Positions 3,797 through 35,556 of a DNA stretch of 35,556 nucleotides are shown here, in pieces (positions within the stretch are counted from its first letter, which is position 1; every line of letters starts with the position of its first letter). The position numbers and the translations under genes are program-made. A model generated the notes under the pieces. That model was not told where the DNA came from and ran no database searches. It saw only the letters and a list, made by a program, of their open reading frames with translations. The stretch is taken from NCBI GenBank assembly GCA_035691305.1, contig DASSJF010000078.1, positions 1 through 35,556 on the forward strand, in the 5' to 3' direction. The stretch is from a bacterium. Lineage in GTDB: Bacteria > Sysuimicrobiota > Sysuimicrobiia > Sysuimicrobiales > Segetimicrobiaceae.

Positions 3797-4419
3797 GGCG
3801 TGCGGGCTCCCGGCTCGTCGAAGAGAGCGCGCTCGACCAGGTCGCACAAAATGTGCTCGATCGCAAGGTGCGCCTCTTGAATATGCTGCACCTGGTCGCT
3901 CGGCACCTCGAGGCCCACCGTGGCGACCCGGGCCACGCGGCCGGCGCGGCCCGTCAGCGCGATCGTCCGGAGGCCGGCCGCGTGGGCGGCCTCGACCGCC
4001 CGGAGCACGTTGGGCGACGTTCCGCTTGCGCTGATCGCGACGAGGACGTCGCCGGGCCTGCCGAGCGACTGCACCTGCCGCGCGAAGATCTCGCCGGCCC
4101 CCGTGTCGTTTGCCACCGCGGTGAGCACGGAGGCATCGGTCGTCAGCGCGATGGCCGGCAGGCCGGGGCGCTCGAACTCGCGCGTCAGCCGGTTCACAAA
4201 CTCGGCCGCGAGGTGCTGGCAGTCCGCCGCGCTGCCGCCGTTGCCGCAAAGCAGCAGTTTGCCCCCGGCACGGAAGGCCGCCGCGATGAGATCGGCCGCG
4301 GCGAGGATCGACGGGATCAGGTGCTCGGCGACGGCGCGCCGGACGTCCGCGCCGGACGTCAAATGCGCCCGTACCCGCGCGGCGCGGTCCACGGCCGTCG
4401 CGGCGGCGCGCTTAGACAT
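3793..4419 (-). CDS. gmhA: Sedoheptulose-7-phosphate isomerase (SIS domain)
   Basis: A 208-residue SIS-domain isomerase, the usual GmhA length, predicted to convert sedoheptulose 7-phosphate to D-glycero-D-manno-heptose 7-phosphate. Seen: CGNGGSAADCQHLAAEF, where the second-shell glutamate aligns with catalytic Glu65 of E. coli GmhA; the phosphate-binding ISASGTSPNV loop; and HIQEAHLAIEH, supplying the equivalents of Gln172 and His180. The start is ATG at 4419-4417, overlapping the end of the upstream SDR gene by eight bases. A 13-base tandem duplication lies in the 5' part (4335-4360). All key residues are present, unlike the paralogue at 30055-30660. It forms an operon with the HddA-like kinase (GTGA overlap). 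Confidence 0.92.
   Translation of the reverse strand: MSKRAAATAVDRAARVRAHLTSGADVRRAVAEHLIPSILAAADLIAAAFRAGGKLLLCGNGGSAADCQHLAAEFVNRLTREFERPGLPAIALTTDASVLTAVANDTGAGEIFARQVQSLGRPGDVLVAISASGTSPNVLRAVEAAHAAGLRTIALTGRAGRVARVATVGLEVPSDQVQHIQEAHLAIEHILCDLVERALFDEPGARTP
4335..4360. repeat. Perfect 13-base tandem duplication inside gmhA
   Basis: CGCGCCGGACGTC occurs twice head to tail (4335-4347 and 4348-4360). The period is not a multiple of three, so the copies encode different residues near the GmhA N-terminus. This is probably a replication-slippage product or chance in GC-rich DNA. Confidence 0.75.
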
Positions 4420-5350
4420 TCTCGAACGGACCCCAGGCCAGCATCCGGTAGCCTTTGAGCAACTCGCCGATCCCCTCCTCCAGCGAGCGCCGCGCCTCGA
4501 AGCCGGCGTCGCGCAGGCGCTGATTGGAGACAATGTAGTCGCGCTTGTCCGGATCCTGCCCGATCGCCGCGAACTCGATGTCGAAGTCGGGCACCTGTTC
4601 CTTCACTTTCAACGCCAGCTGCTCTTTGGTCAGGTTCGCCGAATCCAGACCGACATTATAGCATCGCCCGGCCATGGCGTCCGCGTGCCGGACGCAGTAG
4701 ATCATACAGTCGGCGACGTCGCGGATATGGACGAAATTGCGCCGGAAGTGCTTCTCGAAGATGACGAGATACCGGTCCTTGACCGCGGCGTAGACGAAGT
4801 GGTTCACGAGCAGGTCGACGCGCATCCGCGGCGACATCCCGAAGACCGTCGCGAGCCGCAGCGAGATCGCGTTCCGCGAGCCGAGGAGCTCCGCTTCGGC
4901 GTCGGCCTTGGTCCGGCCGTAGAGCGAGATCGGCTCGAGCGGCGTGTCCTCGGTGCAGTACGCCGCGCCCGGCTTCATCCCGTAGCCGCTGTTCGTGGTC
5001 GGGAAGACGACCAGCTGGTTCGGGCTGCGCAGCCGGTTGAGCATTTTGACGGCATCGAGGTTGAGCGCCTTGGCCAGCCACGGATCGCGGTCGCAGGCCG
5101 GGGCGCCGACCACCGCGGCGAGCGGAATGACAACGTCGGCGGCGGCGAGCAGGCGCCGTACCACGCCCTCGTCCCGCGCGTCGCCGTACTCGAAGGTGAA
5201 CGCCGGGTTCGCGCAGAGGTGAAAAAGAGAGTGCTGGCGGTGCGCAAGATTGTCCAGCACCGTGATCCGGCACCCGGCGTCGAGAAGATGCTCGCACAGC
5301 ACAGATCCGAGGTACCCCGCGCCGCCGGTGACGAGCACCCGTGACTCCAT
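4412..5350 (-). CDS. NAD-dependent nucleotide-sugar epimerase/dehydratase (extended SDR)
   Basis: A 312-residue extended SDR that binds NAD(P) through TGGAGYLG (residues 8-15). The active-site Tyr/Lys pair is in SLYGRTK (Y144, K148), and the serine/threonine region reads PTTNSGYG (117-124). The tail is typical of sugar-nucleotide epimerases. The substrate cannot be named. Because its stop overlaps gmhA and hddA and the Gmd-like gene follow, a role in epimerising a heptose-derived nucleotide sugar is reasonable. The start is ATG at 5350-5348; the Shine-Dalgarno is weak. It is separated by 61 bases from the Nudix gene. Confidence 0.87.
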   Translation of the reverse strand: MESRVLVTGGAGYLGSVLCEHLLDAGCRITVLDNLAHRQHSLFHLCANPAFTFEYGDARDEGVVRRLLAAADVVIPLAAVVGAPACDRDPWLAKALNLDAVKMLNRLRSPNQLVVFPTTNSGYGMKPGAAYCTEDTPLEPISLYGRTKADAEAELLGSRNAISLRLATVFGMSPRMRVDLLVNHFVYAAVKDRYLVIFEKHFRRNFVHIRDVADCMIYCVRHADAMAGRCYNVGLDSANLTKEQLALKVKEQVPDFDIEFAAIGQDPDKRDYIVSNQRLRDAGFEARRSLEEGIGELLKGYRMLAWGPFENV

Positions 5351-13317: not shown

Positions 13318-13324
13318 CTCCCTT
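13318..13324 (-). promoter_or_regulatory. Ribosome binding site that decides the SDR start at 13310
   Basis: It reads AAGGGAG on the minus strand, seven bases before ATG 13310-13308 but only one base before the alternative GTG 13316-13314. The spacing favours the ATG. Confidence 0.55.
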
Positions 13325-15431
13325 ATGCGCTTCTCTGGGCCGGAAGAACGGCCGCGGCGTCCACCGCGACGGGTTTGCCCGTGCGGACCGACTCGAGGAC
13401 GGCCAGGCAGGCCAGCGTGTTGGCCGCGTACGCGGACGCGGCCACCGGCGCCGCGGTCTCTCCGCGAACGGCCGCGATCCACGCGCGCAGTTCCTCGTCG
13501 AATCCCTTCGCCGTCTCCGAGCGGTGAATCCGGCGTGCCCGTCCGCCGCGGACGAGCGTCAGATGCCGGAAGTCGTCGAGGGTCGCGGCGAACCCGGCGC
13601 CGAAGGCCTCGAGCCGCTCGCGCGATTCCGCCCGGTCGGCGCCGTCCGCGTAGACGACCGAGGCCGTGGACCCGTCGCCAAACGCGGCGGTGACGACAAG
13701 CGTCGCCCCGCCGGCACGCGCAAACACCTCGATCGGATCGGCCTCGGTCAAATACTGCAGCAAGTCGATGAAGTGCCCCCCCTCGGCGAGCCACCGTCCC
13801 CCGCCTTCCTTGGGATCATACACCCAATGATCCGGGGGGATCGCCCCGGCGTTCACGCGATACGTGAGCGCGAGAGGACGTTGGCCGGCCAGAAACTCCT
13901 TGAGCAACCCGGCCAAGCCGGAGTAGCGACGGTTGAATCCGACCATCAAGACGCGCGATGACGCGGCGTGGGCTTCGAGCACCCCGCGGGTCTGCTCCGC
14001 CGTCAGCGCCAACGGCTTCTCGACGAAGACGTGCTTTCCGCTGCGAAGGGCGTCGATCGCGAGCGGCGCGTGCAGATCGTGGCGGGTGGCGACGACGACC
14101 GCCTTGATCTCGGGGGCGTTCATGATCTCGCGGACGTCGGTGGTGCAGCGCTCGAACCCGAGGCGGTCCCCGGCGTGACGGGCCGACAACCCGCTCCGCG
14201 TGGCGATCGTGTGCAGGCGCACGCCGGGTAGGCCGCGCAGCGCCGGGAGGAGCACCGTCTGGGCGAATAGGCCGCCGCCGATCACTCCAACCGCGACCGG
14301 TTCGGCCGCGGGAGACGGGGTCGCGGCCGTCCCCGGGCGGGCGGCCGGACGCAGCGTCTGCGTCCGGCCGCCCGCGTCGCGCTCCGGATAGACCAATACC
14401 ACGCCGAGGTGCGGCTCTCGGACACGCCCGCGGATCAGCGCGTACGCCTCCCCGGCCCGCTCGATCGGAAACCGATGAGTGATCAACGGCTCGACCCGGA
14501 CACTGCCGCGCCCAAGCGCCGCCACGAAGTCGGCGTTGTCCTGGGGCAGCGCCGATCGCGAGAGGAGCAACGACAGTTCCTTCTGCCAGTATGGACGCCG
14601 CGGGATGTCCATGCCCGTCACGCCGACCATCACGACGGTGCCGCCCGACCGTGCCAGCTCCGCCGCCAACTCGACAGGTCCGTTGCTGGTCGTCGCGGCG
14701 GTGATGATCACCGCGTCCGCGCCGGCGCCACCGGAAAGCCGTCCCGCGTCGGCCTGCGCCTCGTCCGCGCTCGTGGCCGCGGCATCGGCGCCGAGATCTC
14801 GAGCGAGGGCCGCGCGCGCAGGGGCGATGTCCTGCCCCAGCACCCGGCAGCCCAGGCCTTTCAGAAGCTGGACGGTCAGCTGGCCGAGGAGTCCCAAGCC
14901 GATCACGGCCACGACGTTTCCGGCACCGGCGCCGGACCGCCGGATGCCGTGCAGCGCGATGCCACCCAGCATCGCAAACGCCCCGGCCTCCCACGACACG
15001 CCCGCGGGAAGGGGGACGCACTGCTGCTCGGGCACGACCACCATTTCGGCGTGAAGCGCCCAATCGGCGCCGGTGCAGGCGACGCGATCTCCGGGCCGCG
15101 CGCCGGTCACGCCGGCGCCGGTGTCCGCTACCAGACCCGCGCAGCTGTAGCCCAACGGAAACGGCCGGTCCAGACGCAAAAATCCCTCGCGGATCGTCGT
15201 ACGCAGGCCGTCCCGACGCACCTTATTGAGCGCCTCGCGCACCAGGTCCGGCCGGGCCCGCGCCTTGCCGAGCAGACTCTTGCCCGCGAGTTCGATCACG
15301 AGCCGCTCGGTGCCCGCGCTGACGACGGACGCGGCGTTGCGAACGAGTACCGTGTCTCGGCGTACCTGCGGCACCGGAACGTCCGCCACACGCAGCGCCC
15401 CGGTGCGGGGGCTCAATACCACCTGCTTCAT
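13323..15431 (-). CDS. Bi-domain oxidoreductase: MDR alcohol-dehydrogenase domain fused to Gfo/Idh/MocA domain
   Basis: A 702-residue fusion. Residues 1-350 are a medium-chain dehydrogenase (substrate fold, then Rossmann motif VIGLGLLG at 176-183). Residues 351-378 are a Pro/Ala-rich linker. Residues 379-702 are a Gfo/Idh/MocA oxidoreductase with VGVIGGGLFA (381-390) and the hallmark EKP (471-473). Such fusions recur in bacterial exopolysaccharide loci, and both halves are NAD(P)-dependent sugar oxidoreductases in other settings. The joint reaction is not established. The start is ATG at 15431-15429, in ATGA overlap with the GT2 gene upstream; a reading to 15491 lacks support. The linker is encoded by a perfect 18-bp inverted repeat (14337-14375), which may mark an old gene fusion. 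Confidence 0.9.
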   Translation of the reverse strand: MKQVVLSPRTGALRVADVPVPQVRRDTVLVRNAASVVSAGTERLVIELAGKSLLGKARARPDLVREALNKVRRDGLRTTIREGFLRLDRPFPLGYSCAGLVADTGAGVTGARPGDRVACTGADWALHAEMVVVPEQQCVPLPAGVSWEAGAFAMLGGIALHGIRRSGAGAGNVVAVIGLGLLGQLTVQLLKGLGCRVLGQDIAPARAALARDLGADAAATSADEAQADAGRLSGGAGADAVIITAATTSNGPVELAAELARSGGTVVMVGVTGMDIPRRPYWQKELSLLLSRSALPQDNADFVAALGRGSVRVEPLITHRFPIERAGEAYALIRGRVREPHLGVVLVYPERDAGGRTQTLRPAARPGTAATPSPAAEPVAVGVIGGGLFAQTVLLPALRGLPGVRLHTIATRSGLSARHAGDRLGFERCTTDVREIMNAPEIKAVVVATRHDLHAPLAIDALRSGKHVFVEKPLALTAEQTRGVLEAHAASSRVLMVGFNRRYSGLAGLLKEFLAGQRPLALTYRVNAGAIPPDHWVYDPKEGGGRWLAEGGHFIDLLQYLTEADPIEVFARAGGATLVVTAAFGDGSTASVVYADGADRAESRERLEAFGAGFAATLDDFRHLTLVRGGRARRIHRSETAKGFDEELRAWIAAVRGETAAPVAASAYAANTLACLAVLESVRTGKPVAVDAAAVLPAQRSA
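14337..14375. repeat. Perfect 18-bp inverted repeat with 3-base loop in the interdomain linker of the bi-domain oxidoreductase
   Basis: Left arm 14337-14354 reads GCGGGCGGCCGGACGCAG. The right arm 14358-14375 is its exact reverse complement, and the loop is CGT. It encodes residues 353-365, exactly the linker between the MDR and Gfo/Idh/MocA domains. No T-tract follows on either strand, so it is not a canonical terminator. Confidence 0.93.
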
Positions 15432-16324
15432 CTCATCCCGCCCCTCACCCGGGCATCGAGCAGCATCGCGTCGATCAGGAGCCGGTACCAAAGCGCCTGC
15501 AGGGAATGGTAGATAAACCCTTCCCGACCGTCAAGAAAACCGCCGCGAAGCAGATAGCGGTAGAGGAAATACAGGAGGGCGCGCAGGCCCGCCGGCGTCC
15601 GGCGGTAGACGCGCGTGTACCACCACCGCGACCGCTCCGCGGGCACGGCGCTGCCCCAGCGCGCCGGCAGCCCGGCGGCATCGTGACGCAGCAACTCCTC
15701 GGCGTTCAGCCGCGCGTAGCGTGTGTGCCGCTCGATCCAGCGCTCTAGCGGCCGCCGATCCTCGTGCAGCAGGTCGCCGTGCAGACGGGCCGTCGGTCCG
15801 TCGACGAGGAGGTGCTCGTCGACGCCGCGGTCCTCGCACCGCGCCACGCGGTGGCGAACGACGCGGAGAAGCCACACGGGGTAGTAACCGCCGTGACGGA
15901 GCCAGCGGCCCAAAAACACGAACCGCCGCTTCACCTGAAACCCGGCGATGCCGGCCGGCGGCGCCGCAAGCACCGCGGTGAGCTCCGCCCGCAACTCCGG
16001 CGTTACGGCTTCGTCGGCGTCCAAGAACAACACCCACTCCGGTCCCAGCGGCAGCGACCGAAGGGCCCAGTTGCGCTGCGCGGCGTACCCAGGAAACTCG
16101 CGCGGGACGACGCGCGCGCCCGCGTCGCGGGCAAGCGCGGCCGTCCGGTCGGTGCTTAGCGAATCGACGACCCAGACTTCCGCCGCCCAGCCCACGACGC
16201 CGGCGAGGGCGTGCGGCAGATTGTCCTCTTCGTTCCGAGCCAGAATAATGACCGCGAGCGGGACGGGGCCGGTCCGTGCGGACGTCTCCGGGGTGGGCGC
16301 CGGCGCGGGCTGCGACCCGGTCAC
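15428..16324 (-). CDS. Glycosyltransferase family 2, WaaE-like
   Basis: A 298-residue GT2 enzyme. After a Pro-rich N-terminal stretch come VIILARNEEDNLPHAL, VVDSLSTDRT, FPGYAAQRNWAL and the metal-binding FLDADE motif. These resemble WaaE/KdtX-type LPS-core glucosyltransferases and related enzymes. The C-terminal third is rich in aromatic and hydrophobic residues (LLYFLYRYLLRGGFLDGREG) and could attach to the membrane. The start is GTG at 16324-16322, in GTGA overlap with the sugar-transferase gene; a longer reading to 16933 runs antisense-like through that gene. Predicted to add an early sugar after the initiating transferase. Sugar not determined. Confidence 0.88.
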   Translation of the reverse strand: MTGSQPAPAPTPETSARTGPVPLAVIILARNEEDNLPHALAGVVGWAAEVWVVDSLSTDRTAALARDAGARVVPREFPGYAAQRNWALRSLPLGPEWVLFLDADEAVTPELRAELTAVLAAPPAGIAGFQVKRRFVFLGRWLRHGGYYPVWLLRVVRHRVARCEDRGVDEHLLVDGPTARLHGDLLHEDRRPLERWIERHTRYARLNAEELLRHDAAGLPARWGSAVPAERSRWWYTRVYRRTPAGLRALLYFLYRYLLRGGFLDGREGFIYHSLQALWYRLLIDAMLLDARVRGGMR

Positions 16325-23279: not shown

Positions 23280-24616
23280 AGGGTGCCGCGGTCCGGGTTC
23301 CGGCGCACCGCGGTCCGGTCCCACCAGGCGATCGCCGCGGTGAGCGCTCCGTACACCAGCAGCGCGTGCAGCACCCCGCCTAACACCAGACTGAGGTTCG
23401 ATTCAGCGTTGACGGCCGTCCCGACCACCGCCATCCCGAGCACCAGATTACCGGGCGCCGCGTCGGGTCCAATCCAGCGCGTCCAAATGACGCGCAGGAC
23501 CAGCCCAACCGCCGCGGCGGACAGCACAACGCCGACCCATCCTGCGTTCACCCAGCCTTCTGTCACCATCGGGAGATTGACGCTGTGCACCGTGTCGGGG
23601 AGATCGAGAAACGGATACCGGTGGCCGTAGAACTGGCCCGCCAGTTCTCGCGGCTTGTCCGGCCATAGGAATCGAGGCACGAACTTCGTCACGAGCGGCG
23701 CATACGTCGCGCCGCCGGCATACGGCACCGTCGCCGGGGTTGCCTGGATCACATAAGCGAGGTCGGCCAAGCGGTTGATGCGCAGGATCGCGCGTGACGC
23801 GGCGAACTGTGCGAGCAACACCAACCCGCTTGCGCGGTGGAAGCGCAGGCCAAGCGCCACAGGATCGAAGAAGGCGAGCCGCTGGCTGAAGGTAAGATGC
23901 ACCGGGGGAACCGATGAGGTCGCGGCGCCGGCACCGGCATGAACGCGCCGGTGAAAGGGATCCCCATTGTACACCTGCATCCGAAGATACTCCCGAAATG
24001 GAAACGCGACAACAATAAGCGGCACCAGCAGGAGGACGGCCGCGGCCTGGCGGCGCCATGATATTCCGACAATTCGAAGACCGTAGAGAATGGCGATCGC
24101 GCTGAAGACCGCGGGGCCGACCTTGGACAGCACGACCGGCACGAGCAGCGAGACTATGAGATCGACGATCAGCAGTCCCCGCACTGCGGTCGAACGGTTG
24201 CGCGCGACCCCACGGCGAAGGAGCCAGGCTCCGAGCACAAAGCCGATCGGCGGCGCCAAGGACAGCTGGTGGACGATTTCTTCGATCCCCGCGGGCAGGG
24301 CGTGAAAGGCGTGAAGCAGAGAGACGCCGCTCCCCGCCGATGAAAACGCAACGAAGGCCCACCATACCGCGTGAGCCGTCCATTCGCCGGATCGGGCCGG
24401 CCGGTCAGCCCGAACCGGCCAGACCACGAGTCCGGCCGCGATCGCAAACCAAACCAGGCAGACAACCAGCGCGGTGAGCGCGAACGGTGTAGGGACCGTG
24501 GCGAGACCACGGTTGATGGAGACGACCAACGGCAACCGCACGAACAGGAGCGGGAGGAAAAAGATCAGGAACATGGGGCCGAACACGTACAAAACGAAGA
24601 AGAGCCGCCCTTTCAC
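23276..24616 (-). CDS. Polysaccharide polymerase candidate (Wzy-like polytopic membrane protein)
   Basis: A 446-residue membrane protein with about ten hydrophobic segments and a large polar loop near the C-terminus. That loop contains FVPRFLWPDKPRELAG followed by VTEGWVNAGWVGVV, a pattern common in O-antigen/oligosaccharide repeat-unit polymerases of the Wzy type. With a Wzx flippase and an initiating transferase in the same operon, a polymerase is the expected missing component. Assignment rests on topology, loop motif and context, because Wzy sequences diverge strongly. The start is GTG at 24616-24614, in GTGA overlap with the AsnB gene; the upstream extension to 24886 is unsupported. It ends convergently with the CgeB-like gene. 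Confidence 0.75.
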   Translation of the reverse strand: MKGRLFFVLYVFGPMFLIFFLPLLFVRLPLVVSINRGLATVPTPFALTALVVCLVWFAIAAGLVVWPVRADRPARSGEWTAHAVWWAFVAFSSAGSGVSLLHAFHALPAGIEEIVHQLSLAPPIGFVLGAWLLRRGVARNRSTAVRGLLIVDLIVSLLVPVVLSKVGPAVFSAIAILYGLRIVGISWRRQAAAVLLLVPLIVVAFPFREYLRMQVYNGDPFHRRVHAGAGAATSSVPPVHLTFSQRLAFFDPVALGLRFHRASGLVLLAQFAASRAILRINRLADLAYVIQATPATVPYAGGATYAPLVTKFVPRFLWPDKPRELAGQFYGHRYPFLDLPDTVHSVNLPMVTEGWVNAGWVGVVLSAAAVGLVLRVIWTRWIGPDAAPGNLVLGMAVVGTAVNAESNLSLVLGGVLHALLVYGALTAAIAWWDRTAVRRNPDRGTL

Positions 24617-26493
24617 GGCATCTCCAACCCACCGGCGGCGCGAAGCCACAGGACGAGGACCACGGCGGCCCAGAGGCGCGACCAGTGTGTCCGTCCCTCG
24701 TCTACTCGAGCGTGCAGAGCCGCCACGGCCTCGGGCCGAAACAGACCCGAGCCGTCCCGCAGCGCCTGCTCGACCCGCGGCCTGAGCGGACCGCGCAACC
24801 ATTCCGCCATGGGAAAGCTGAAACCGCGCTTCCGGTGCCCGGCGTCGGGGGACAGACGGTCGCGGAGCGCCCGCCGGAGAAGCCATTTGGGAGGATGGCC
24901 GTTCGCGCGCACGCCGTCAGGCAGTCCGGCCGCGAACTCGACGAGCGGATGATCGAGGAACGGCACACGGACCTCGAGACCGTGCGCCATGCTCATCACG
25001 TCGGTGTCCCTTAGCAGCTGATTATGCATATACCCGCGCAGTTCCAGCATCGCCGTCGCCGCCACCGGTTCCGCGGGAAGCACCGGGACCAGGGCGCCGA
25101 GCGCGGCCGCCGCGTCCAGGCTCTGCGCGGCGTCGCGAAGCGACCCGGGCGCCAGCAGCTTCATGAGCTCGGCGCCGCTGAACAGGCTCCGAACGGCGAG
25201 GTAGGCCGTCTGCATCGTGGCCGCCTGCATCAACCCTTCCCGCACCTTATCGGACCGCAGCGGCGGCAGAGTCGACAGGACCGTCGCCAGCACCGGCCGG
25301 ACCGGCCCGAGCCGTTCTGCGACATGATGCAGGGCAAGCAGCCGGGGCGCCTGCCTGAACGACGGATATCCGCAGAACAGCTCGTCTCCGCCGAGGCCCG
25401 ACAGTGCCACGGTCGTGCCGGACCCCCGTGCCACGCGGGAGACGTAATACGTGTTCAGACCGTCAATCGTCGGCTGGTCCATCGCTGCGATCACCGCATC
25501 GAGGTCCGCGGCGACGGCTGCGCCCTGCACCTCGTACGCCGTGTGGTCGGTGCCGTAGCGGGCGGCCAGGCGGGCGGCCTCGGGGCCTTCGTCCATGTCG
25601 GATTCCGGGAAGGTGATCGAGAACGTACGGATCCGCTCGTGTCCCGCGTCCCGCATCATCGCGACGATGGCGCCGGAATCCACACCACCGCTCAAGAAGA
25701 CCCCGAACGGGACGTCGCTGATGAGGTGGCGGCTCACCGAGTCGCTCAAACGCGTACGAAGCTCGGCGATGGTGTCGTCCACGTTCCGTTTCTCCGAGCG
25801 CGGCGCAGGAATCTCCCAATAGCGGTCGAGCGCTCCCCGGCCGGCTCCGTCGACTGTGAGCGTGGTGGCGGGCGGCAGCTCGTGGACGCCCTCCAACACC
25901 GACATGGGACCGGGCACGGACCCGAGGCGCAGAAACGCGGCGAGCGCCGAGGGGTCCGGCCGCGCGGATATGACGCCGGACGCCCGGAGCGCCCGCAGCT
26001 CCGAGGCGAAGATCCATCGATCCGCGTCGTGCGCGTAGTACAGGGGCTTGATGCCGAGCCGATCGCGGGCGAGCAGGAGCGTGTGAGAACGCGCGTCCCA
26101 CAGCGCCAACGCGAACATCCCCCGCAGCCGCCGGCACATCTCCACGCCGTCCCGCAGGTAAAGGGCCAGGATGACTTCGGTGTCGGAATGCCCGCGGAAG
26201 GGATAGCCCGAGGCGGCGAGGTCCCGGCGCAGCTCCCGATAATTGTAGATCATGCCGTTATAGGTCAGGGCGACGCGGCCGCCGGGATCGATCATGGGCT
26301 GGTGACCCGCGGGAGAAACGTCGATGATCGCGAGCCGGCGATTGCCGAGGGTCAGCCGTCCCGCCGCGTCGGCCCAAACTCCTTCGTCATCGGGCCCCCG
26401 ATGCGCGAGGGCGGCTGTCATTCGGGCGGTCGCCGCCCGCAGCCGAGTCGGGTCGGCGGACGGTACGGCGTAGATTCCGCAAATCCCGCACAT
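24613..26493 (-). CDS. asnB: Asparagine synthase (glutamine-hydrolysing) family amidotransferase
   Basis: A 626-residue AsnB-type enzyme. The N-terminal class II glutaminase has catalytic Cys2 (MCGICGIY), RGPDDEG (32-38), YNGMIYNY (78-85) and HSDTE (102-106). The C-terminal synthetase domain has the ATP-pyrophosphatase loop SGGVDS (268-273). Family members make asparagine, but copies inside polysaccharide loci are thought to amidate sugar carboxylates or peptide-like substituents. No uronic-acid-forming dehydrogenase is visible in this window, so the acceptor is open. The start is ATG at 26493-26491, required to expose Cys2. A 101-base gap separates it from the transaldolase gene; no promoter is evident there. 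Confidence 0.93.
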   Translation of the reverse strand: MCGICGIYAVPSADPTRLRAATARMTAALAHRGPDDEGVWADAAGRLTLGNRRLAIIDVSPAGHQPMIDPGGRVALTYNGMIYNYRELRRDLAASGYPFRGHSDTEVILALYLRDGVEMCRRLRGMFALALWDARSHTLLLARDRLGIKPLYYAHDADRWIFASELRALRASGVISARPDPSALAAFLRLGSVPGPMSVLEGVHELPPATTLTVDGAGRGALDRYWEIPAPRSEKRNVDDTIAELRTRLSDSVSRHLISDVPFGVFLSGGVDSGAIVAMMRDAGHERIRTFSITFPESDMDEGPEAARLAARYGTDHTAYEVQGAAVAADLDAVIAAMDQPTIDGLNTYYVSRVARGSGTTVALSGLGGDELFCGYPSFRQAPRLLALHHVAERLGPVRPVLATVLSTLPPLRSDKVREGLMQAATMQTAYLAVRSLFSGAELMKLLAPGSLRDAAQSLDAAAALGALVPVLPAEPVAATAMLELRGYMHNQLLRDTDVMSMAHGLEVRVPFLDHPLVEFAAGLPDGVRANGHPPKWLLRRALRDRLSPDAGHRKRGFSFPMAEWLRGPLRPRVEQALRDGSGLFRPEAVAALHARVDEGRTHWSRLWAAVVLVLWLRAAGGLEMP

Positions 26494-26594: not shown

Positions 26595-27335
26595 CTATCC
26601 GACGCGTGCGGATACAGTGACGATGGAGTATCCCGCGGCGGCGGCGTCGCCGTGGAACATCTTGACCGTATGCAGCGAGTATTCCTCAAGATCGCGCCCC
26701 ACCAGCCCCAGCTTGCTCAGCACGCCGCTGGTCGCGGTGATGATATGACATCCGATTTCATCCGCCTGGAAGATGTTGAGCAATTCCCGGGGGCTCGCCC
26801 ACAAGAGCTCGGCGCGCGGCCGCGCCGCCATCGCCGCCACCGCCTCGCGCATGATCGGCACCGGGTCGACGCCGGTATCCGCGATGCGGCCGGCGAAGAC
26901 GGATACGATCGCCGGCGTCTCCGGGTCGAGGCAGTCCGCGACGCGGCGGACCTGCGTCGCGGTGAGAAGCGCCGTCACGTTGATGGGCACGCCGGCCCGG
27001 GAGAGTTCGCGAATGACCCCGCCGCTGAATTCCCCGCGCGTATTGGTTACCGGTATCTTCACGAACACGTTCCGGCCCCAAGAGGCGATCGTCTTCGCCT
27101 GGCGGATCATCTCGGGAAATTCGTCGGCGAAGACCTCGAACGACACCGGACGGTCGGGCACCGCCGCCAGCACCGTACGGGCGAACCCTTCGTAGTCGTC
27201 CACCCCCGCCTGCCGCATCAACGTGGGATTCGTCGTAAATCCCTTGATGATAGGATTGGCGTAGAGCTGGACGATGCCCGTCAGGTCGGCGCCGTCCGCG
27301 AAGATCTTGACGCGAAGATTCTCCAGCCGGTTCAT
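26595..27335 (-). CDS. Transaldolase (small TalC/FSA-like family)
   Basis: A 246-residue transaldolase-family enzyme. Seen: IFADGADL (residues 11-18), GFTTNPTLM (32-40), SFEVFADE (65-72) and the Schiff-base lysine K93 in VFVKIPVTN. The family transfers dihydroxyacetone units and can form sedoheptulose 7-phosphate from fructose 6-phosphate and erythrose 4-phosphate; some members are fructose-6-phosphate aldolases. It overlaps the GmhB-type phosphatase gene by four bases (ATGA at 27332-27335) and follows a heptose kinase. Local supply of the C7 ketose phosphate for the GmhA step is therefore the natural reading. That role is inferred from gene order. Confidence 0.92.
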   Translation of the reverse strand: MNRLENLRVKIFADGADLTGIVQLYANPIIKGFTTNPTLMRQAGVDDYEGFARTVLAAVPDRPVSFEVFADEFPEMIRQAKTIASWGRNVFVKIPVTNTRGEFSGGVIRELSRAGVPINVTALLTATQVRRVADCLDPETPAIVSVFAGRIADTGVDPVPIMREAVAAMAARPRAELLWASPRELLNIFQADEIGCHIITATSGVLSKLGLVGRDLEEYSLHTVKMFHGDAAAAGYSIVTVSARVG

Positions 27336-27886
27336 GACGTTGTCCCCCTCGCCAGGATCCAGTCCACGGCGGCAGGAAGCGACGCGACGATCAGATCGGG
27401 GGCCTCGGCCTTCGGTTCGCTGTACCCGCGGTCGACAAACACGGTACGGCACCCGGCGCGGCGGCCGGCCTCGATGTCTTTCCACCGGTCACCCACCATC
27501 ACGCTCCGGCCGAGATCGATATTCAACCGGCGCGCGGACGCCAACAGCAGACCAGGCTTTGGCTTGCGGCAGTCACAATCCTGCTCGTCCGCGTGCGGAC
27601 ACATTTCAACGGCATCGAGCGGCAGCCAGGCGCGAAGCCGCTGGTGCATCGCCTCGACCACGCCGGGGTCAACGAGCCCGTTCGCGATGTCGGGCTGGTT
27701 GGTCACGACGACCGCCAGAAATCCCGCCGCGCGGAGGCGCTCCACCGCTTCCCGGACGCCGGGGAGCAGACGGAAATCTTCCAAACGCCGGGGGGCGTAG
27801 GATTTCCCGTCCCGCTCTTCGCCATGGGTGAGCACGCCGTCGCGATCCAGAAACACCGCGGCCCGGCCCGGGGCGGCCCCGCTCAC
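27332..27886 (-). CDS. gmhB: D-glycero-D-manno-heptose-1,7-bisphosphate 7-phosphatase (HAD-IIIA)
   Basis: A 184-residue HAD phosphatase. Catalytic D14/D16 lie in FLDRDGVLT. Motif II is VVVTNQPDIA (around 59-68). The zinc loop has C96, H98, C104 and C106 (CPHADEQDCDC), followed by RKPKPG (107-112), and motif IV is MVGDRWKDIEAG with D133/D137. This is the GmhB arrangement, with a zinc loop about seven residues shorter than in E. coli. It removes the 7-phosphate from heptose 1,7-bisphosphate before nucleotide activation. It is the only such phosphatase seen here and would have to serve both heptose kinases. The start is GTG at 27886-27884, 24 bases after the kinase stop. Confidence 0.91.
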   Translation of the reverse strand: MSGAAPGRAAVFLDRDGVLTHGEERDGKSYAPRRLEDFRLLPGVREAVERLRAAGFLAVVVTNQPDIANGLVDPGVVEAMHQRLRAWLPLDAVEMCPHADEQDCDCRKPKPGLLLASARRLNIDLGRSVMVGDRWKDIEAGRRAGCRTVFVDRGYSEPKAEAPDLIVASLPAAVDWILARGTTS

Positions 27887-27910
27887 GCGGCCGAGGCCCG
27901 GCGCGGGGCG

Positions 27911-28900
27911 TCAGAAATTGACGACGACTTTCGCGCCCTCGAAGTCGAAATCGTAGTGCATCTCCCGCAGGCCCGCGTCTGCCAGCGCCCGGCGCAGCCC
28001 GGCCTTGTAGCTCTTGGGACAAACCAGCATGAGGAAGCCGCCGCCGCCGGCGCCCATCACCTTCCCGCCCAGGGCGCCCTGCCGCTTTGCCAGATCGTAC
28101 CACTCGTCGATGCGGGGGTCGGTGATCATTCGCGACCGGCGCTTCTTCGTCTGCCAGTGCTCGTCGAGGAGCAGGCCGAATCGCTCGATGTCACCGCCCG
28201 CCAGCGCGTCCCGGATGCGGTAGCCGATCTCCTTCGTGCGGTGGAGGCTCTCCAGGACGGCGGCGTTCCCTTCCTCGGTGTGCTTTTTCTGGTCGGCGAG
28301 AATGTCGTCGCTCGACCGGACGATCCCGGTGTAGAAGAGCAGCACGCTGTCGCGAAACTCCTCCTCCGTCCCCACAGCGATGTCGAGCAGGCTGGCTTTC
28401 ACGTGGCCGTCCCGACCGATCTCCAGGCACGAGACGCCCCCGAGGGCCGCGAGATAGTGGTCGTGCTTCCCGACCGGATGGCCGGCCAGATTCATCTCGA
28501 TGTGGCAGGCCTGTTCGGCCAGCGCCTGGGTCGGGATCTTCTCGCGTTTCAGCTCGTGCAGCGCGGTGAGCAATGCCACGGCGTAGGCACCGGACGAACC
28601 CAGCCCGGTGCCGGCCGGCACGTCCGCCATCGACGTGATCTCGAGACTACCGGACAAACCGAGCAGCCTCAACGCGGGCTTCACGAGGTCGTGCTGCACG
28701 TCGTCGACCGAGGTGACCTGCTCGTAGCGGGAGTACTTGACGCGGATGAAGTCGTCCGCCGCCGGGCGGTTGACGGCGATATAGACGTACTTGTTGATGG
28801 CGGCGCTGAGGATAAATCCTCCGAATTGCGAGTAATACGACGGCAGATCGGTTCCACCACCCCCCAGCGGTATGCGCATCGGCGCGCGGGCCAGAATCAT
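27911..28900 (-). CDS. GHMP kinase, heptose-7-phosphate kinase-like (second paralogue)
   Basis: A 329-residue GHMP kinase of the HddA group, with ARAPMRIPLGGGGTDLPSYY (residues 4-23), the ATP loop DVPAGTGLGSSGAYAVALL (about 92-110) and the C-terminal GGKVMGAGGGGFLML. It differs clearly from the kinase at 2720-3796, for example GGGGTDLP against FGGGTDYP and shorter by 29 residues. It is therefore an old paralogue rather than a recent duplicate. It starts the block kinase-GmhB-transaldolase, which marks its substrate as a C7 sugar phosphate. The start is ATG at 28900-28898 with a poor Shine-Dalgarno. The 247-base AT-richer region upstream may hold its promoter. Confidence 0.89.
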   Translation of the reverse strand: MILARAPMRIPLGGGGTDLPSYYSQFGGFILSAAINKYVYIAVNRPAADDFIRVKYSRYEQVTSVDDVQHDLVKPALRLLGLSGSLEITSMADVPAGTGLGSSGAYAVALLTALHELKREKIPTQALAEQACHIEMNLAGHPVGKHDHYLAALGGVSCLEIGRDGHVKASLLDIAVGTEEEFRDSVLLFYTGIVRSSDDILADQKKHTEEGNAAVLESLHRTKEIGYRIRDALAGGDIERFGLLLDEHWQTKKRRSRMITDPRIDEWYDLAKRQGALGGKVMGAGGGGFLMLVCPKSYKAGLRRALADAGLREMHYDFDFEGAKVVVNF

Positions 28901-29147: not shown

Positions 29148-30053
29148 CTATCGAGAAAACGACCGGTCAAGAATTCGCGGCAGTTCCGTTGTCGGCGGTT
29201 GAAATAGAATCTGCCCCTCGGTCGGGCCGCCCGCCGACCCCGCCAACCCCGAGCTGTGTGGCTCGTCGCTGATAAGGTAGGCGCGATCGTACCCAAAGGT
29301 TCGCATGAAATCGTACACCTCTCGTGGCGAGTGGCCGAACCTAACGGTGTAGGAGGACACCTCCAAGATAACCCACGGCCGCAGGTCGCCAAGCAGTTCG
29401 TGGGCGCCCTTGAGAACAGCCAGCTCCGCCCCTTCGACATCCACCTTGAGCAATCGCACGGAGCCTCCTCCAATCTTGTTGCGCAGATAGTCGACCGTGC
29501 TGGTGACAATGTCGCACGGTCCGCTTCTGTTCGTCTCGCAGACGACGGAGCTTGTTGTCTGTCGATAGAACGGCCGGCGCAGCGAAACGCGGCGGCCGAC
29601 CTCCTCGTATGCCGCCACGTTTGCGCTAAGCACGTTCACGAGGCGATTGCGATGCACGGTCTCCTGGAGATGGCGAAAGGCGTCGCGGTTCGGCTCGACC
29701 GCGAGCACCAACCCCGAGACACCGACGACGCGCGAGGCGATGCAGGCGAAATAACCCCAGTTCGCGCCTATGTCGACGTAGGTATCTCCCTGAACAAGCA
29801 GCGCACAGATGACCGAGGCGGTGCCCAAATCAAACTGGCCGCTCCTGACCATGACAAACTGTACGGGGTCGCCGAGATCGAACTCGATCGGTATCATCGC
29901 ATTTTCGGATGACAACGATAACCGAGCGCGCCGCCAGCCATGAGGTAACAGCCTGGTCAAGGGTGCGCCGACGATCCACGCTCCGCGAGTGTTCGGGACA
30001 ACGCGCAGGAGCCCCGCCGCGGCGGCGCACGAGTAGGTCAGAACGGGCCGCAT
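29148..30053 (-). CDS. FkbM-family SAM-dependent methyltransferase
   Basis: A 301-residue Rossmann methyltransferase. SAM motif I is YVDIGANWGYF (residues 92-102), the acidic loop is VEPNRDAF (119-126), and the FkbM hallmark LLKVDVEGAEL is at 201-211. The family O-methylates hydroxyls of sugars and polyketides, so a methylated glycan is likely. The start is ATG at 30053-30051, one base after the SIS gene's stop; a longer reading to 30107 would overlap that gene. Base composition is lower than in its neighbours (34 of 60 G/C at 29461-29520), and codons are less GC-biased. This suggests separate acquisition. Confidence 0.9.
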   Translation of the reverse strand: MRPVLTYSCAAAAGLLRVVPNTRGAWIVGAPLTRLLPHGWRRARLSLSSENAMIPIEFDLGDPVQFVMVRSGQFDLGTASVICALLVQGDTYVDIGANWGYFACIASRVVGVSGLVLAVEPNRDAFRHLQETVHRNRLVNVLSANVAAYEEVGRRVSLRRPFYRQTTSSVVCETNRSGPCDIVTSTVDYLRNKIGGGSVRLLKVDVEGAELAVLKGAHELLGDLRPWVILEVSSYTVRFGHSPREVYDFMRTFGYDRAYLISDEPHSSGLAGSAGGPTEGQILFQPPTTELPRILDRSFSR

Positions 30054-30054
30054 G

Positions 30055-30660
30055 TCACAGAAGCGATTCCCATTTGTTTTTCGCGCTCTGAAGAGCCGGG
30101 TGCGCAACCATGAGATGCCAGACGACGGCGTGGAACGTCTCGGTGTGAGGCGTCACGTGCTCGGGATTAACCGTGGGGACGATCACACACGCGTCGGCCA
30201 CCTGCGCGGTGTAGCCGCCTCGCCGTCCAACCACGCCGATAATGCGAGTCCCAACCTGTTTCGCGTAGGCGAGCGCGCGCACAAGATTGGGACTCACGTT
30301 GTGCTCTGAGTCGCCGCCGCCGACTGAAAAGACCAGCAGCAGATCGTTCGGTCGCAAGCGGCTTGTGCGAAGCCACTGCTCGAAGACAGTCTCCCATCCG
30401 TCGTCGTTCACGCGCGCGGTCAGTTCCGACACGTTGTCCGTTGGGGCGTAGGCCTCGAAGGCTGCGATCTTTCGGAAGTCGTTGACCGCGTGCGAGGCGT
30501 TCGCCGCGCTGCCGCCGACCCCGAGGACGAACAGGCGTCCTCCCCGGGCGCGCGTGTCGGCCAGCAGCGCGACGGCACGCTCGATCGCGTCGGCGTCGAT
30601 GTCTTCCAGGATGCGCCGCGTTTCGGCCAGGTACCGCTGCACGAAGCTCATCGTCGACAT
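30055..30660 (-). CDS. SIS-domain protein, divergent GmhA-like isomerase
   Basis: A 201-residue SIS protein related to GmhA. It has the GVGGSAANASHAVNDF segment and a C-terminal HTETFHAVVWHLM. By eye alignment the catalytic Glu65 of E. coli GmhA is aspartate here and Gln172 is glutamate, while His180 is kept. The phosphate loop reads FSVGGGDSEHNVSPNLVRAL, longer than the usual S-x-S-G-x-S form. It is therefore a paralogue with altered chemistry or substrate, perhaps another ketose phosphate. The start is ATG at 30660-30658, two bases after the GT2 stop; an internal ATG at 30651 is possible. It probably works with the nearby kinase, GmhB and transaldolase. Confidence 0.86.
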   Translation of the reverse strand: MSTMSFVQRYLAETRRILEDIDADAIERAVALLADTRARGGRLFVLGVGGSAANASHAVNDFRKIAAFEAYAPTDNVSELTARVNDDGWETVFEQWLRTSRLRPNDLLLVFSVGGGDSEHNVSPNLVRALAYAKQVGTRIIGVVGRRGGYTAQVADACVIVPTVNPEHVTPHTETFHAVVWHLMVAHPALQSAKNKWESLL

Positions 30661-31721: not shown

Positions 31722-32728
31722 GCGTTCACCGGCCGGCCGGCGGACCGTTTGATCTCGCCGGGTGCGGCGGGCCGGCGGGAGAAGGACCGAACCTGGCGCC
31801 ATCGCCAGAGACGGTCCACGACGCGCCGGAGGGTTCTCGACGGCGTTGCGCGCACCACGGTCCGCAGCGCCCACGCGGCCGGCGCCGGCAATACCTCCGG
31901 GAGGATTTTCTCGAATTCCGCCTTGTCGGCGACGAGAAGATACGCGGCGGCAAGATTGATTTTGCACCGCCGCAGCACACGGTCCGCGCCGAAAACCGCG
32001 CGCTCCTCGTCGGACATGCCCGCGAAGAGACCTTCGAACATCCCCAGGGCATTCCTCTTCAAGATGCATTGGATCTCCATCGTCGTGTTGCTGTTCTCCC
32101 GGATTTCAACGACGACGAGATCTTCGTCTTGATAACCGAAGCGGACCCCGGCGCGGGCAAGACGTAGGCAGAGGTCCCACTCCTCGGGGTAGTAGCGCTC
32201 CTCGCAGAAGGTGAACCGGCCCCGCAAGACGCCGCCGCGGATCATCAACGTATTGGGGTTGACGAGCGAAGATCGCAGCAGCGCGGGGAAAATGTCACCC
32301 GGCTGGACGCCGGCGGATCGTCCGAGCAGGCGGTCGGGCGCCTTCGAGTAAAAGTGCACCGCGTTGCAGAAGCTCGCGCCGAATTCCGGATGAGCTTCCA
32401 GGAGCGTGACCTGCCGTTCGACCTTGTTGGGCCGATAGAAATCGTCCGCGTCGAGAAACGTGATGTAGGTCCCCGTGCTCGCCGCGATTCCTTTGTTGCG
32501 GGCGGGACCCTGCCCTTGGTTCGGCTGGTGGAGGTAGCGGACGCGCGGGTCTTCGCGGCTGCGAATCAGCGCGGCCGTGCGGTCCTGCGAACCGTCATCG
32601 ACGACGAGGATTTCCAGATTCGCGTACGTCTGGTGGAGCGCGCTCTCCAGGGCGCGATCGATGAAGCGTTCCGCGTTATACGCGGGCATGACGATGGAGA
32701 CCAACGGAGAGGGCGGAGACAGCGTCAT
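31718..32728 (-). CDS. Glycosyltransferase family 2
   Basis: A 336-residue GT2 enzyme with a standard GT-A domain: VSIVMPAYNAERFIDRALES, ILVVDDGSQDRTA, the metal-binding FLDADDFY, and ERYYPEEWDLCLRLA supplying the acidic catalytic region. No membrane segment is seen. The last 60 residues are Arg-rich. The start is ATG at 32728-32726, in ATGA overlap with the nucleotidyltransferase gene upstream. It is part of a coupled run of three GT2 genes and is predicted to add a sugar of the repeat unit. The donor is unknown. Confidence 0.9.
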   Translation of the reverse strand: MTLSPPSPLVSIVMPAYNAERFIDRALESALHQTYANLEILVVDDGSQDRTAALIRSREDPRVRYLHQPNQGQGPARNKGIAASTGTYITFLDADDFYRPNKVERQVTLLEAHPEFGASFCNAVHFYSKAPDRLLGRSAGVQPGDIFPALLRSSLVNPNTLMIRGGVLRGRFTFCEERYYPEEWDLCLRLARAGVRFGYQDEDLVVVEIRENSNTTMEIQCILKRNALGMFEGLFAGMSDEERAVFGADRVLRRCKINLAAAYLLVADKAEFEKILPEVLPAPAAWALRTVVRATPSRTLRRVVDRLWRWRQVRSFSRRPAAPGEIKRSAGRPVNA

Positions 32729-33462
32729 TTGAGGGTCGCGGGGCGGGCGCGCGCAAACGGGAGCGCGGGCCAGAGGTCCTCCAGCCGGCGGAGATCCTCC
32801 GGGCGATCGATCCACCACAACCCTTCATCGGGTTGCATACGGTAACCGTAAATCGGCTCGTCCCGGGCCAGCAGCTCCGGAAACACGTCCCGGCCGAAAT
32901 CGGCCGGCTCGCCGGCCTTGATCGTGTCGAGCGCACGAGGCTCAAGGACGAGAATGCCGGCACTGACCCATCGGCTGAACACCTGATCCGCGGAGGGTTT
33001 CTCGACAAACCGCGTCACCCTGCTGTTTTCGTCGAGCGCCGCGATGCCGCTTTGTGTCACGTCGTCTCGGTAAAATAGCGCGATTGTCGCCGCTCCTCCC
33101 GTTGCCCGGTGGAACGCCCACAGGCGATCGAGCCGGCAGGTGCTCAAGTTATCGCCGTACCACACCAGGGACGGCGATTCGCCGAAGAGCGACGCGGCGT
33201 TCTTGACGGCCCCCGCCGTGCCGAGCAACACCGGCTCCACAATGTAGGTGAGCCGCACGCCCCAGGCTGCGCCGTCGCCGAAGTGCTCCTTGACGACGTT
33301 CGGGAGGTGATGCAGGTTGATAACGACGTCCGTGACGCCATAGCGGCGAAGCCATTCGATCGTATACTGCAGCACGGGCTTGCCGCCCACTCTTATCATG
33401 CACTTGGGGATTTGCTCGCTGAGGGGCCGCAGGCGCGTCCCCAGTCCCGCTGCCAGGATCAT
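32725..33462 (-). CDS. Sugar-phosphate nucleotidyltransferase, HddC/GDP-mannose-pyrophosphorylase-like
   Basis: A 245-residue single-domain nucleotidyltransferase with MILAAGLGTRLRPLSEQIPK (residues 1-20), LVWYGDNLS for the metal-binding aspartate, and FVEKPSAD. It lacks a C-terminal beta-helix, as HddC does. It is the nucleotidyltransferase nearest to the second SIS, kinase and GmhB genes, and so is a candidate to activate the heptose 1-phosphate of that module. The gene at 11585-12301 is the competing HddC candidate. The start is ATG at 33462-33460, 22 bases after the GT2 stop; an upstream in-frame TTG is possible. Nucleotide specificity is not readable. Confidence 0.87.
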   Translation of the reverse strand: MILAAGLGTRLRPLSEQIPKCMIRVGGKPVLQYTIEWLRRYGVTDVVINLHHLPNVVKEHFGDGAAWGVRLTYIVEPVLLGTAGAVKNAASLFGESPSLVWYGDNLSTCRLDRLWAFHRATGGAATIALFYRDDVTQSGIAALDENSRVTRFVEKPSADQVFSRWVSAGILVLEPRALDTIKAGEPADFGRDVFPELLARDEPIYGYRMQPDEGLWWIDRPEDLRRLEDLWPALPFARARPATLK

Positions 33463-34386: not shown

Positions 34387-35310
34387 TCAGTCGGGCCGAT
34401 ATCCGGCTACGGTGATCCGCAGCCCTGCATCGAGTTGATAGCGCGGCTGCCACCCAAGTTCTTTCTTTGCCTTGGTGTTGTCAAGACAATACCGGATTTG
34501 CTCGCCCGGCCGGTCCGGGTAATAGATCGGCCGCGGGTCCTTGCCGAGGATTCTCGCAATCCGCGCGTACAGGTCGTTCAGCGTGGTCTCGACGCCCGTG
34601 CCGATATTGAACACGGGATCGGGGTGATCCGGGCGCACGGCGAGGGCGAGCAGGTTGGCGTCCACCACGTCCTCGACAAAGACGTAATCCCGCGTCTTGC
34701 TGCCGTCGCCCCACATCTCCGCCTGCTCGTTCGACGCGAGTTTGCGGATGTAGTCGGCCATGGCGCCGGTCCGCTGCCGCGGCCCGTAGATCGCCGCGTA
34801 GCGCAGGATCACGTAGGGAATGCCGTAGGCGCGGCGGTAGAAACGCGCGTAATTCTCGACCGCCTGTTTCGAGACGACGTACGGCGAGGCGGGATCGATT
34901 GGGCACCGCTCGTCGCACGGCAGCGTCGCGGCGTTCCCGTAGAGAAAGCCGGACGAGCCGATGACGATCCGCCGGACGCCGAGGCCCTTGGCGGCCTGAA
35001 ACAGCCGGATCGAACCGACAATCACGTCCACGTCCAGCAGCGGGTTCTCGACCGAGTTGGGCACGAGCACATAGAAGGCCAGGTGATAGACGATATCGGG
35101 CCGTTCCCGGTTCATGACCTCGGTGAAGGCCTCGTCGGCGAGATTCAACTCGTAGAACTTCGCCCGCGGATTGACGTTCTGCCGCCTGCCCGTCGATAGA
35201 TTGTCGACTACGACGACGCGGGCGCCCCGCTCCACGAGGGCATCGACGGTGTGCGAACCGATGAACCCGGCGCCGCCGGTGACCAGCACAGTCGCGTTCT
35301 TCACATCCAC
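34387..35310 (-). CDS. NAD-dependent nucleotide-sugar epimerase (extended SDR, UDP-glucose 4-epimerase-like)
   Basis: A 307-residue extended SDR with TGGAGFIG (residues 11-18), the active-site serines in IGSSGFLYG (117-125), Y144/K148 in ASPYVVSK, and WGDGSKTRDYVFVEDVVDA. The pattern fits UDP-glucose 4-epimerase-like enzymes; the actual sugar is not decided. The start is GTG at 35310-35308, six bases after GGAG. Longer readings to 35415 would overlap the upstream membrane-protein gene, and a second GTG six bases downstream has poorer spacing. It opens the coupled run of glycosyltransferase genes on the right side. Confidence 0.89.
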   Translation of the reverse strand: MDVKNATVLVTGGAGFIGSHTVDALVERGARVVVVDNLSTGRRQNVNPRAKFYELNLADEAFTEVMNRERPDIVYHLAFYVLVPNSVENPLLDVDVIVGSIRLFQAAKGLGVRRIVIGSSGFLYGNAATLPCDERCPIDPASPYVVSKQAVENYARFYRRAYGIPYVILRYAAIYGPRQRTGAMADYIRKLASNEQAEMWGDGSKTRDYVFVEDVVDANLLALAVRPDHPDPVFNIGTGVETTLNDLYARIARILGKDPRPIYYPDRPGEQIRYCLDNTKAKKELGWQPRYQLDAGLRITVAGYRPD

Positions 35311-35316
35311 GGGTCT

Positions 35317-35320
35317 CTCC
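35317..35320 (-). promoter_or_regulatory. Ribosome binding site deciding the SDR start at 35310
   Basis: It reads GGAG on the minus strand (GGAGA in full), six bases before GTG 35310-35308. The downstream GTG at 35304-35302 would be 12 bases away. Confidence 0.5.
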
Positions 35321-35324
35321 ACGG

Positions 35325-35556
35325 TCAAGCGCTCGTTTGAGGCGCCACCGCGATCCGTCGCAAACCCAAGAAGCAGCACAGAAACGCGAGGCCCGCCGGC
35401 GGTATCGTCAACCACAGGCTGACGGTGGTGACCCGCACGATCAGATACGCCGGGACCCCCGACACCATGACGGCGAGGAACCCGGTCAGCAGTCCCGTGC
35501 TCACGGGCGCGAGCGGCGTGAACCGGCCCACGAACACATACAGGCCGCCGAGAAGC
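35325..35556 (-). CDS. C-terminal part of a polytopic membrane protein (5' end outside window)
   Basis: Only the last 77 residues or so are in the window. Two hydrophobic segments can be seen (around LLTGFLAVMVSGVPAYLIV and WLTIPPAGLAFLCCFLGL), ending in a short polar tail. The frame stays open to the window edge. It ends 14 bases before the SDR gene and so belongs to the same transcription unit. In this position a flippase, polymerase or ligase would be usual, but the fragment is too short to choose. Confidence 0.6.
   Translation of the reverse strand, partial: LLGGLYVFVGRFTPLAPVSTGLLTGFLAVMVSGVPAYLIVRVTTVSLWLTIPPAGLAFLCCFLGLRRIAVAPQTSA

Follow-up and report, generated by a model that had tools for sequence, protein, structure and literature searches.

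The described systems closest to the operon considered here are the pathways to nucleotide-activated heptoses and the octose pathway of the lincosamide antibiotics. The GDP-D-glycero-D-manno-heptose pathway relies on GmhA, HddA, GmhB and HddC and, to our knowledge, has in its classical form no dedicated transaldolase, and the ADP-heptose pathway relies on GmhA, HldE and GmhB. The nearest described transaldolase family, TIGR02134 (transald_staph), is named for a family thought to provide the housekeeping transaldolase in Staphylococcus. The lincosamide GDP-octose pathway of lincomycin and celesticetin comprises LmbR, LmbN, LmbP, LmbK and LmbO, followed by LmbM, LmbL, LmbZ and LmbS. According to two papers (PMC5854111, PMC4351081), LmbR makes octulose 8-phosphate from fructose 6-phosphate or sedoheptulose 7-phosphate (S7P) plus ribose 5-phosphate, and LmbN is the octulose 8-phosphate isomerase of the pathway, the two enzymes together yielding octose 8-phosphate via octulose 8-phosphate.

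The window analysed here is the whole 35,556-nucleotide stretch of DNA, and the end of the contig at 35556 bounds the readable part of its transaldolase operon. The genes of the operon that bear on the comparison are the following:

26595..27335, minus strand: transaldolase (TIGR02134) of 246 aa, with Schiff-base K93 and an E59/F131-type active site in FsaA numbering
27332..27886, minus strand: GmhB-like HAD-IIIA phosphatase, the presumed remover of the terminal phosphate, with an ATGA overlap with the transaldolase gene
27911..28900, minus strand: GHMP sugar kinase, presumed to be an anomeric (C1) kinase, which groups with the kinases of other transaldolase operons
29148..30107, minus strand: FkbM-family methyltransferase within the gene run, possibly for sugar O-methylation
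30055..30660, minus strand: LmbN-like SIS ketose/aldose phosphate isomerase, with its start inferred from alignment (open reading frame to 30795)
32725..33462, minus strand: sugar-1-phosphate nucleotidyltransferase, with its start inferred (open reading frame to 33567)
34387..35415, minus strand: SDR-family sugar epimerase/dehydratase, whose SDR counterparts in the transaldolase loci of relatives L131 and L133 share 67-70% identity with it

Upstream of the transaldolase, the same strand carries the GHMP kinase, FkbM, SIS, nucleotidyltransferase and SDR genes together with glycosyltransferases, two of which lie between the SIS and nucleotidyltransferase genes and another between the nucleotidyltransferase and SDR genes. 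The ATG of the transaldolase gene at 27335 shares its ATGA with the TGA of the GmhB-like gene. An earlier interpretation made from the DNA letters (the sequence-only reading) had described this overlap, the adjacent GHMP kinase and the upstream SIS and nucleotidyltransferase genes, and all of these were found, on the minus strand throughout; its gene order stands, with the correction that the FkbM methyltransferase and two glycosyltransferases intervene among the genes that it listed. Elsewhere, the window encodes an asparagine-synthase-like amidotransferase (24613-26493) that resembles XrtA/PEP-CTERM exopolysaccharide amidotransferases but scores below the model cut-off (452.5 against 816.9 bits), and a zinc alcohol dehydrogenase domain fused to a Gfo/Idh oxidoreductase domain, in a polysaccharide locus (13323-15491).

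By its active-site signature, the window gene encodes a true transaldolase in predicted activity. The protein scores 336.7 bits with TIGR02134, above the equivalog cut-off of 281.95, and 133.9 bits with Pfam TAL_FSA. Lysine 93, which the sequence-only reading had named as the Schiff-base residue, sits in the motif NVFVKIPVT and aligns with FsaA K85 in 92/92 TIGR02134-type sequences compared. All 92 carry D6, E59, K85, N107, T109, F131, R134, S166 and R168 (FsaA numbering), the transaldolase signature that is complete in the window protein. Escherichia coli FsaA has Q59 and Y131 and the lincosamide-type transaldolases have Q59, L131 and W132, whereas the window enzyme has E59, F131 and A132, as in ordinary transaldolases, and TIGR02134 and LmbR form separate clades in the tree (100/100 and 99/96). 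The E59/F131 signature (92/92) thus indicates a protein of the transaldolase type that is neither an FSA nor an LmbR orthologue. An identity as FSA was rejected on the TIGR00875 score (73.4 bits against a cut-off of 245.95) and on the presence of E59/F131 in place of Gln59/Tyr131, and direct LmbR orthology was rejected on the distinct clades and the different active-site residues. The window gene differs from the described family in its setting, which is a polysaccharide operon and not central or catabolic metabolism. The transaldolase of the celesticetin cluster (L126, 8547-10034), with Q59, L131 and W132, is unlike both FSA and ordinary transaldolase, which may reflect a C5 acceptor.

The window isomerase is assigned by its sequence to the LmbN type and not to GmhA. 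Position 65 of GmhA is the catalytic Glu and position 172 the metal-ligand Gln, and both are replaced in the window SIS. In an alignment to E. coli GmhA that included 73 further operon SIS proteins, D stands at 65 and, where the column is present, E at 172 in the window SIS and in nearly all of the others; T120 has become V, and the operon proteins carry two insertions relative to the E. coli enzyme. The same set of changes (E65D, Q172E, T120V and both insertions) is common to the window SIS and four LmbN-like SIS proteins of lincosamide-type clusters, and E65 and Q172 are kept in E. coli GmhA and in a second SIS of the window (3793-4533). In the tree, the LmbN-like and operon isomerases stand on one side and the GmhA types on the other (100/97), a split to be read with caution since long branches meet there.

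The lincosamide loci used for comparison were taken from 394 Streptomyces-group genomes, five of which gave a TIGR02134-like match (E <= 1e-6), all five in clusters with a nucleotidyltransferase and a GHMP kinase; SIS and GmhB were also present in four of these clusters. One of them (L126) is a celesticetin cluster because it holds CcbD (798 bits over 355 residues), and another (L127) resembles lincosamide clusters in several genes, among them one for an Erm-like methyltransferase. Three more (L128, L129 and L130) are Streptomyces-group clusters related to, and distinct from, those of lincomycin and celesticetin, with all five octose-type enzymes. The window shares with the lincosamide pathway the classes of transaldolase, LmbN-like SIS, GHMP kinase, GmhB-like phosphatase and nucleotidyltransferase, and putative counterparts of LmbL (a Cys-less dehydrogenase) and LmbZ (a Gfo/Idh protein) are encoded in related operons and also by this genome, on a separate contig. 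The two systems differ in that one is an antibiotic cluster whereas window-type loci are glycan loci with glycosyltransferases, in that the window transaldolase and kinase belong to clades other than those of LmbR and LmbP, and in that no LmbS-type aminotransferase is tied to the window system. In the kinase tree, the window enzyme groups with the operon kinases, nearer to HddA-like enzymes than to LmbP, which falls outside; LmbP orthology was rejected, as the tree gives no specific relationship. The window pathway is thus predicted to function like the lincosamide pathway without being a member of it.

In comparison with the GDP-heptose pathway, the likeness lies in the succession of ketose phosphate, aldose phosphate, C1 kinase, terminal phosphatase and nucleotidyltransferase, and the difference lies in the active site of the isomerase and in the equivalog cut-offs, all of which the window misses. 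The SIS protein scores 61.8 bits with gmhA (cut-off 209.45), the kinase 149.6 with HddA (600), the phosphatase 129.5 and 86.9 with GmhB models (178 and 149.6) and the nucleotidyltransferase 82.7 with HddC (300). The designations HddA-type, GmhB-type and heptose isomerase in the sequence-only reading therefore hold as superfamily resemblance and fail at the equivalog level, and its label of a GDP-heptose operon finds no support in these scores or in an isomerase that lacks E65 and Q172 of GmhA. The likeness to the ADP-heptose pathway is an HldE-like fusion of kinase and nucleotidyltransferase in most related transaldolase operons, whereas the window has a GHMP kinase and a separate nucleotidyltransferase. 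This fusion (12759-14330 in L034, and in 24 other well-flanked loci) has the reverse domain order, with the nucleotidyltransferase first and the kinase second, and scores 148 bits, well below the HldE cut-off of 521.

The pairing of transaldolase and GmhB is strongly conserved, more than expected by chance. TIGR02134 was found above its cut-off in 5/61 genomes sampled as relatives, and a scan of public genomes found 521 relatives, the best 80 of which were kept. GmhB adjoins the TIGR02134 transaldolase in 61 of 71 loci with enough flanking sequence, across many phyla, and a SIS gene lies near it in 49 of 61, compared with no GmhB/SIS pairing at 25 control TalC/FSA loci, whose flanks were shorter (about 1.5 kb); conservation of the gene pair, which the sequence-only reading had named as a point to check, is thus supported. 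Among 33 well-flanked loci, 25 have the HldE-like fusion and six a GHMP kinase with a nucleotidyltransferase. The record titles of the loci name Pseudomonadota, Chloroflexota, Nitrospirota, Acidobacteriota, Verrucomicrobiota, Myxococcota and others, several being metagenome bins with titles that are unreliable as species names. Three such bins (L034, L037 and L039) are titled Bordetella parapertussis, probably wrongly, and give no sign of the operon in that species. A plasmid of Rhizobium jaguaris carries a nine-gene run of SDR, NDP-sugar dehydrogenase, FabG-like SDR, Gfo/Idh, GHMP, nucleotidyltransferase, SIS, GmhB and transaldolase genes, and a Lawsonia plasmid carries a related gene set. 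On some plasmids TIGR02134 also occurs alone, in sugar-catabolic settings beside sugar-uptake genes of the PTS or ABC type, and the match on a plasmid of Streptomyces sp. 3211 (53% identical) has no comparable sugar operon around it.

Because this first set of loci had been collected through the transaldolase, the search was repeated with the isomerase alignment as the anchor, in 400 genomes from the single phylum to which an operon-bearing Anaerolineaceae genome belongs. It gave 16 matches at 304-370 bits and two more at 108-117 bits, and a transaldolase lay within about 2 kb in 11 of 15 new strong matches. These transaldolases all have E59/F131 and represent no fewer than four lineages (SVFAGR, SIFAGR, SIFGGR and SLFWGR types); in three relatives of the window genome, the transaldolase of the operon is of a further sequence type, which is related to SIFAGR. 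The repeated recruitment of different transaldolase lineages beside the isomerase suggests that the reaction is one of the pathway's own steps.

Further candidates for pathway enzymes are provided by the NDP-sugar dehydrogenases of the operons. By tree or motif, 37 of them stand apart from 28 ordinary UDP-glucose-dehydrogenase-type enzymes and together with LmbL (SH-aLRT 99 in a quick tree). The column of the catalytic Cys holds C in 28/28 ordinary enzymes, T in LmbL (4/4), in GHMP-type operons (6/6) and in the one enzyme on contig C14 of the window genome (1/1), and N in HldE-type operons (39/39); in place of GTGYVG, the Cys-less enzymes have a GLWHLG-like dinucleotide motif. With the Cys lost, oxidation is expected to go no further than the ketone, as would suit a substrate oxidized at a secondary alcohol, for example at C6 of a seven- or eight-carbon sugar; this one-step reading leans on the known mechanism of the UDP-glucose-dehydrogenase family. 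No LmbL-type dehydrogenase is present in the window. Contig C14 of the same genome (L266, G000:C14, 5606-11513) holds in a row an ordinary UDP-glucose dehydrogenase, an LmbZ-like Gfo/Idh protein, a FabG-like SDR, a Cys-less LmbL-like dehydrogenase and an SDR with orthologues that lie next to the transaldolase gene in relatives, and this row, on its separate contig, may belong to the same pathway as the window operon. The best matches of LmbZ are operon Gfo/Idh proteins, with a support of 53 for the joint clade.

The supply of S7P and a second set of sugar genes also bear on the product. The window genome has a second transaldolase beside a transketolase on contig C10, as the sequence-only reading had suggested looking for, and because of this separate housekeeping pair S7P is available without the operon. 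Another TAL/FSA match is present in 21/28 operon-bearing genomes, and the seven with only one include small, probably incomplete genomes. The earlier proposal that the locus carries its own enzyme for the ketose thus stands insofar as the pathway has a dedicated transaldolase, but not insofar as that enzyme would be needed to supply S7P. At 1683-5350, the window encodes a Gmd-like SDR, a GHMP kinase, the GmhA-type SIS (3793-4533; 206.9 bits with PRK13936, cut-off 276) and another SDR, and no transaldolase is present in this set. By its gene content it looks like a conventional heptose-type, GDP-6-deoxyheptose-like pathway, and the product of the transaldolase set is therefore probably a different one.

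From the gene content, conservation, active-site signatures and subfamily relationships observed here, we infer every reaction of the following route, together with its C8 chain length, step order and end use. The transaldolase would take three carbons from fructose 6-phosphate (or S7P) and add them to an aldose phosphate, for which ribose 5-phosphate is the likeliest candidate; the resulting octulose 8-phosphate would be converted by the LmbN-like SIS to the aldose 8-phosphate. The GHMP kinase would then phosphorylate C1, the GmhB-like enzyme would take off the terminal phosphate, and the nucleotidyltransferase would form an NDP-octose for a surface polysaccharide. The LmbL-like dehydrogenase and LmbZ-like oxidoreductase, encoded in related operons and on the other contig of the genome, may modify the C6 side chain. 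The best explanation, with a probability slightly above even, is therefore that the transaldolase is devoted to making a ketose phosphate, most probably octulose 8-phosphate, from which a lincosamide-like NDP-octose would be built for a surface glycan. A different ketose phosphate as precursor, which the sequence-only reading had offered as its alternative, has thus become the favoured reading, with C8 a likelier chain length than C7.

Several observations count against an octose and are shared in part by the main rival, in which the operon makes its own S7P for a gluco-type heptose. There, fructose 6-phosphate plus erythrose 4-phosphate would give S7P and then a heptose 7-phosphate differing at C2 from the manno form, and the end product would be an NDP-heptose, perhaps 6-keto or 6-modified. 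The transaldolase lies outside the LmbR clade and has an ordinary active site in 92/92 family members, its family bears the name of a housekeeping enzyme, the kinase is nearer to HddA-like enzymes than to LmbP, and the HldE-like partner in 25/33 well-flanked loci is a kinase-adenylyltransferase of a type known from heptose. A heptose, too, has a secondary hydroxyl at C6 and is compatible with LmbL-like dehydrogenases, and the LmbL- and LmbZ-like genes of the window genome are on a separate contig, with the low LmbZ support given above. However, the genome has another source of S7P, the window's own classical GmhA-type set does without a transaldolase, the isomerase is LmbN-like, and the recruitment of transaldolases on several occasions is hard to explain if the central pool is enough. 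We consider this heptose a real possibility, though one with a probability well short of even.

The main interpretation of the sequence-only reading, an ordinary GDP-D-glycero-D-manno-heptose operon whose transaldolase only raises the flux to S7P, draws on the superfamily-level match of the enzyme classes to GmhA, HddA, GmhB and HddC; it is improbable given that every heptose equivalog cut-off is missed and that the catalytic Glu and metal-ligand Gln of GmhA are replaced. The catabolic settings of TIGR02134 beside PTS or ABC uptake genes, which also count against the octose, would suit a hitch-hiking catabolic or housekeeping transaldolase with no role in the pathway, but the adjacency of GmhB and SIS across phyla and its lack at control loci, the gene overlap in the window and the occurrence of different transaldolase lineages beside one isomerase type make this very unlikely. 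We give still less credence to a fructose-6-phosphate aldolase-type enzyme making or splitting a sugar with free dihydroxyacetone or another donor: FSA-type enzymes are among the structural relatives and share the Pfam family TAL_FSA, whereas the TIGR00875 score and E59/F131, against Q59/Y131 of FsaA, speak against it.

The octose reading would account for the presence of a pentose-phosphate enzyme inside a polysaccharide operon. No description of this system was found in the open-access papers searched for a transaldolase in polysaccharide or heptose operons or for an octose with O-antigen biosynthesis, an absence that is weak evidence. We tentatively suggest, at somewhat less than an even chance, that lincosamine-type linear octoses made via octulose 8-phosphate are widespread in the surface glycans of many phyla, and that the sugar pathway of the lincosamides is derived from that older glycan route or shares its origin. 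The LmbN-like isomerase with D/E at 65/172, the Cys-less dehydrogenase and the adjacent transaldolase may serve as sequence markers for new higher-carbon sugars, and they point also to cultured bacteria such as Rhizobium jaguaris. If the octose reading is true, the GDP- or ADP-heptose names that databases give to such operons would be predictably wrong, and a type of sugar chemistry so far known from the lincosamide antibiotics only would be common in bacterial surface glycans.
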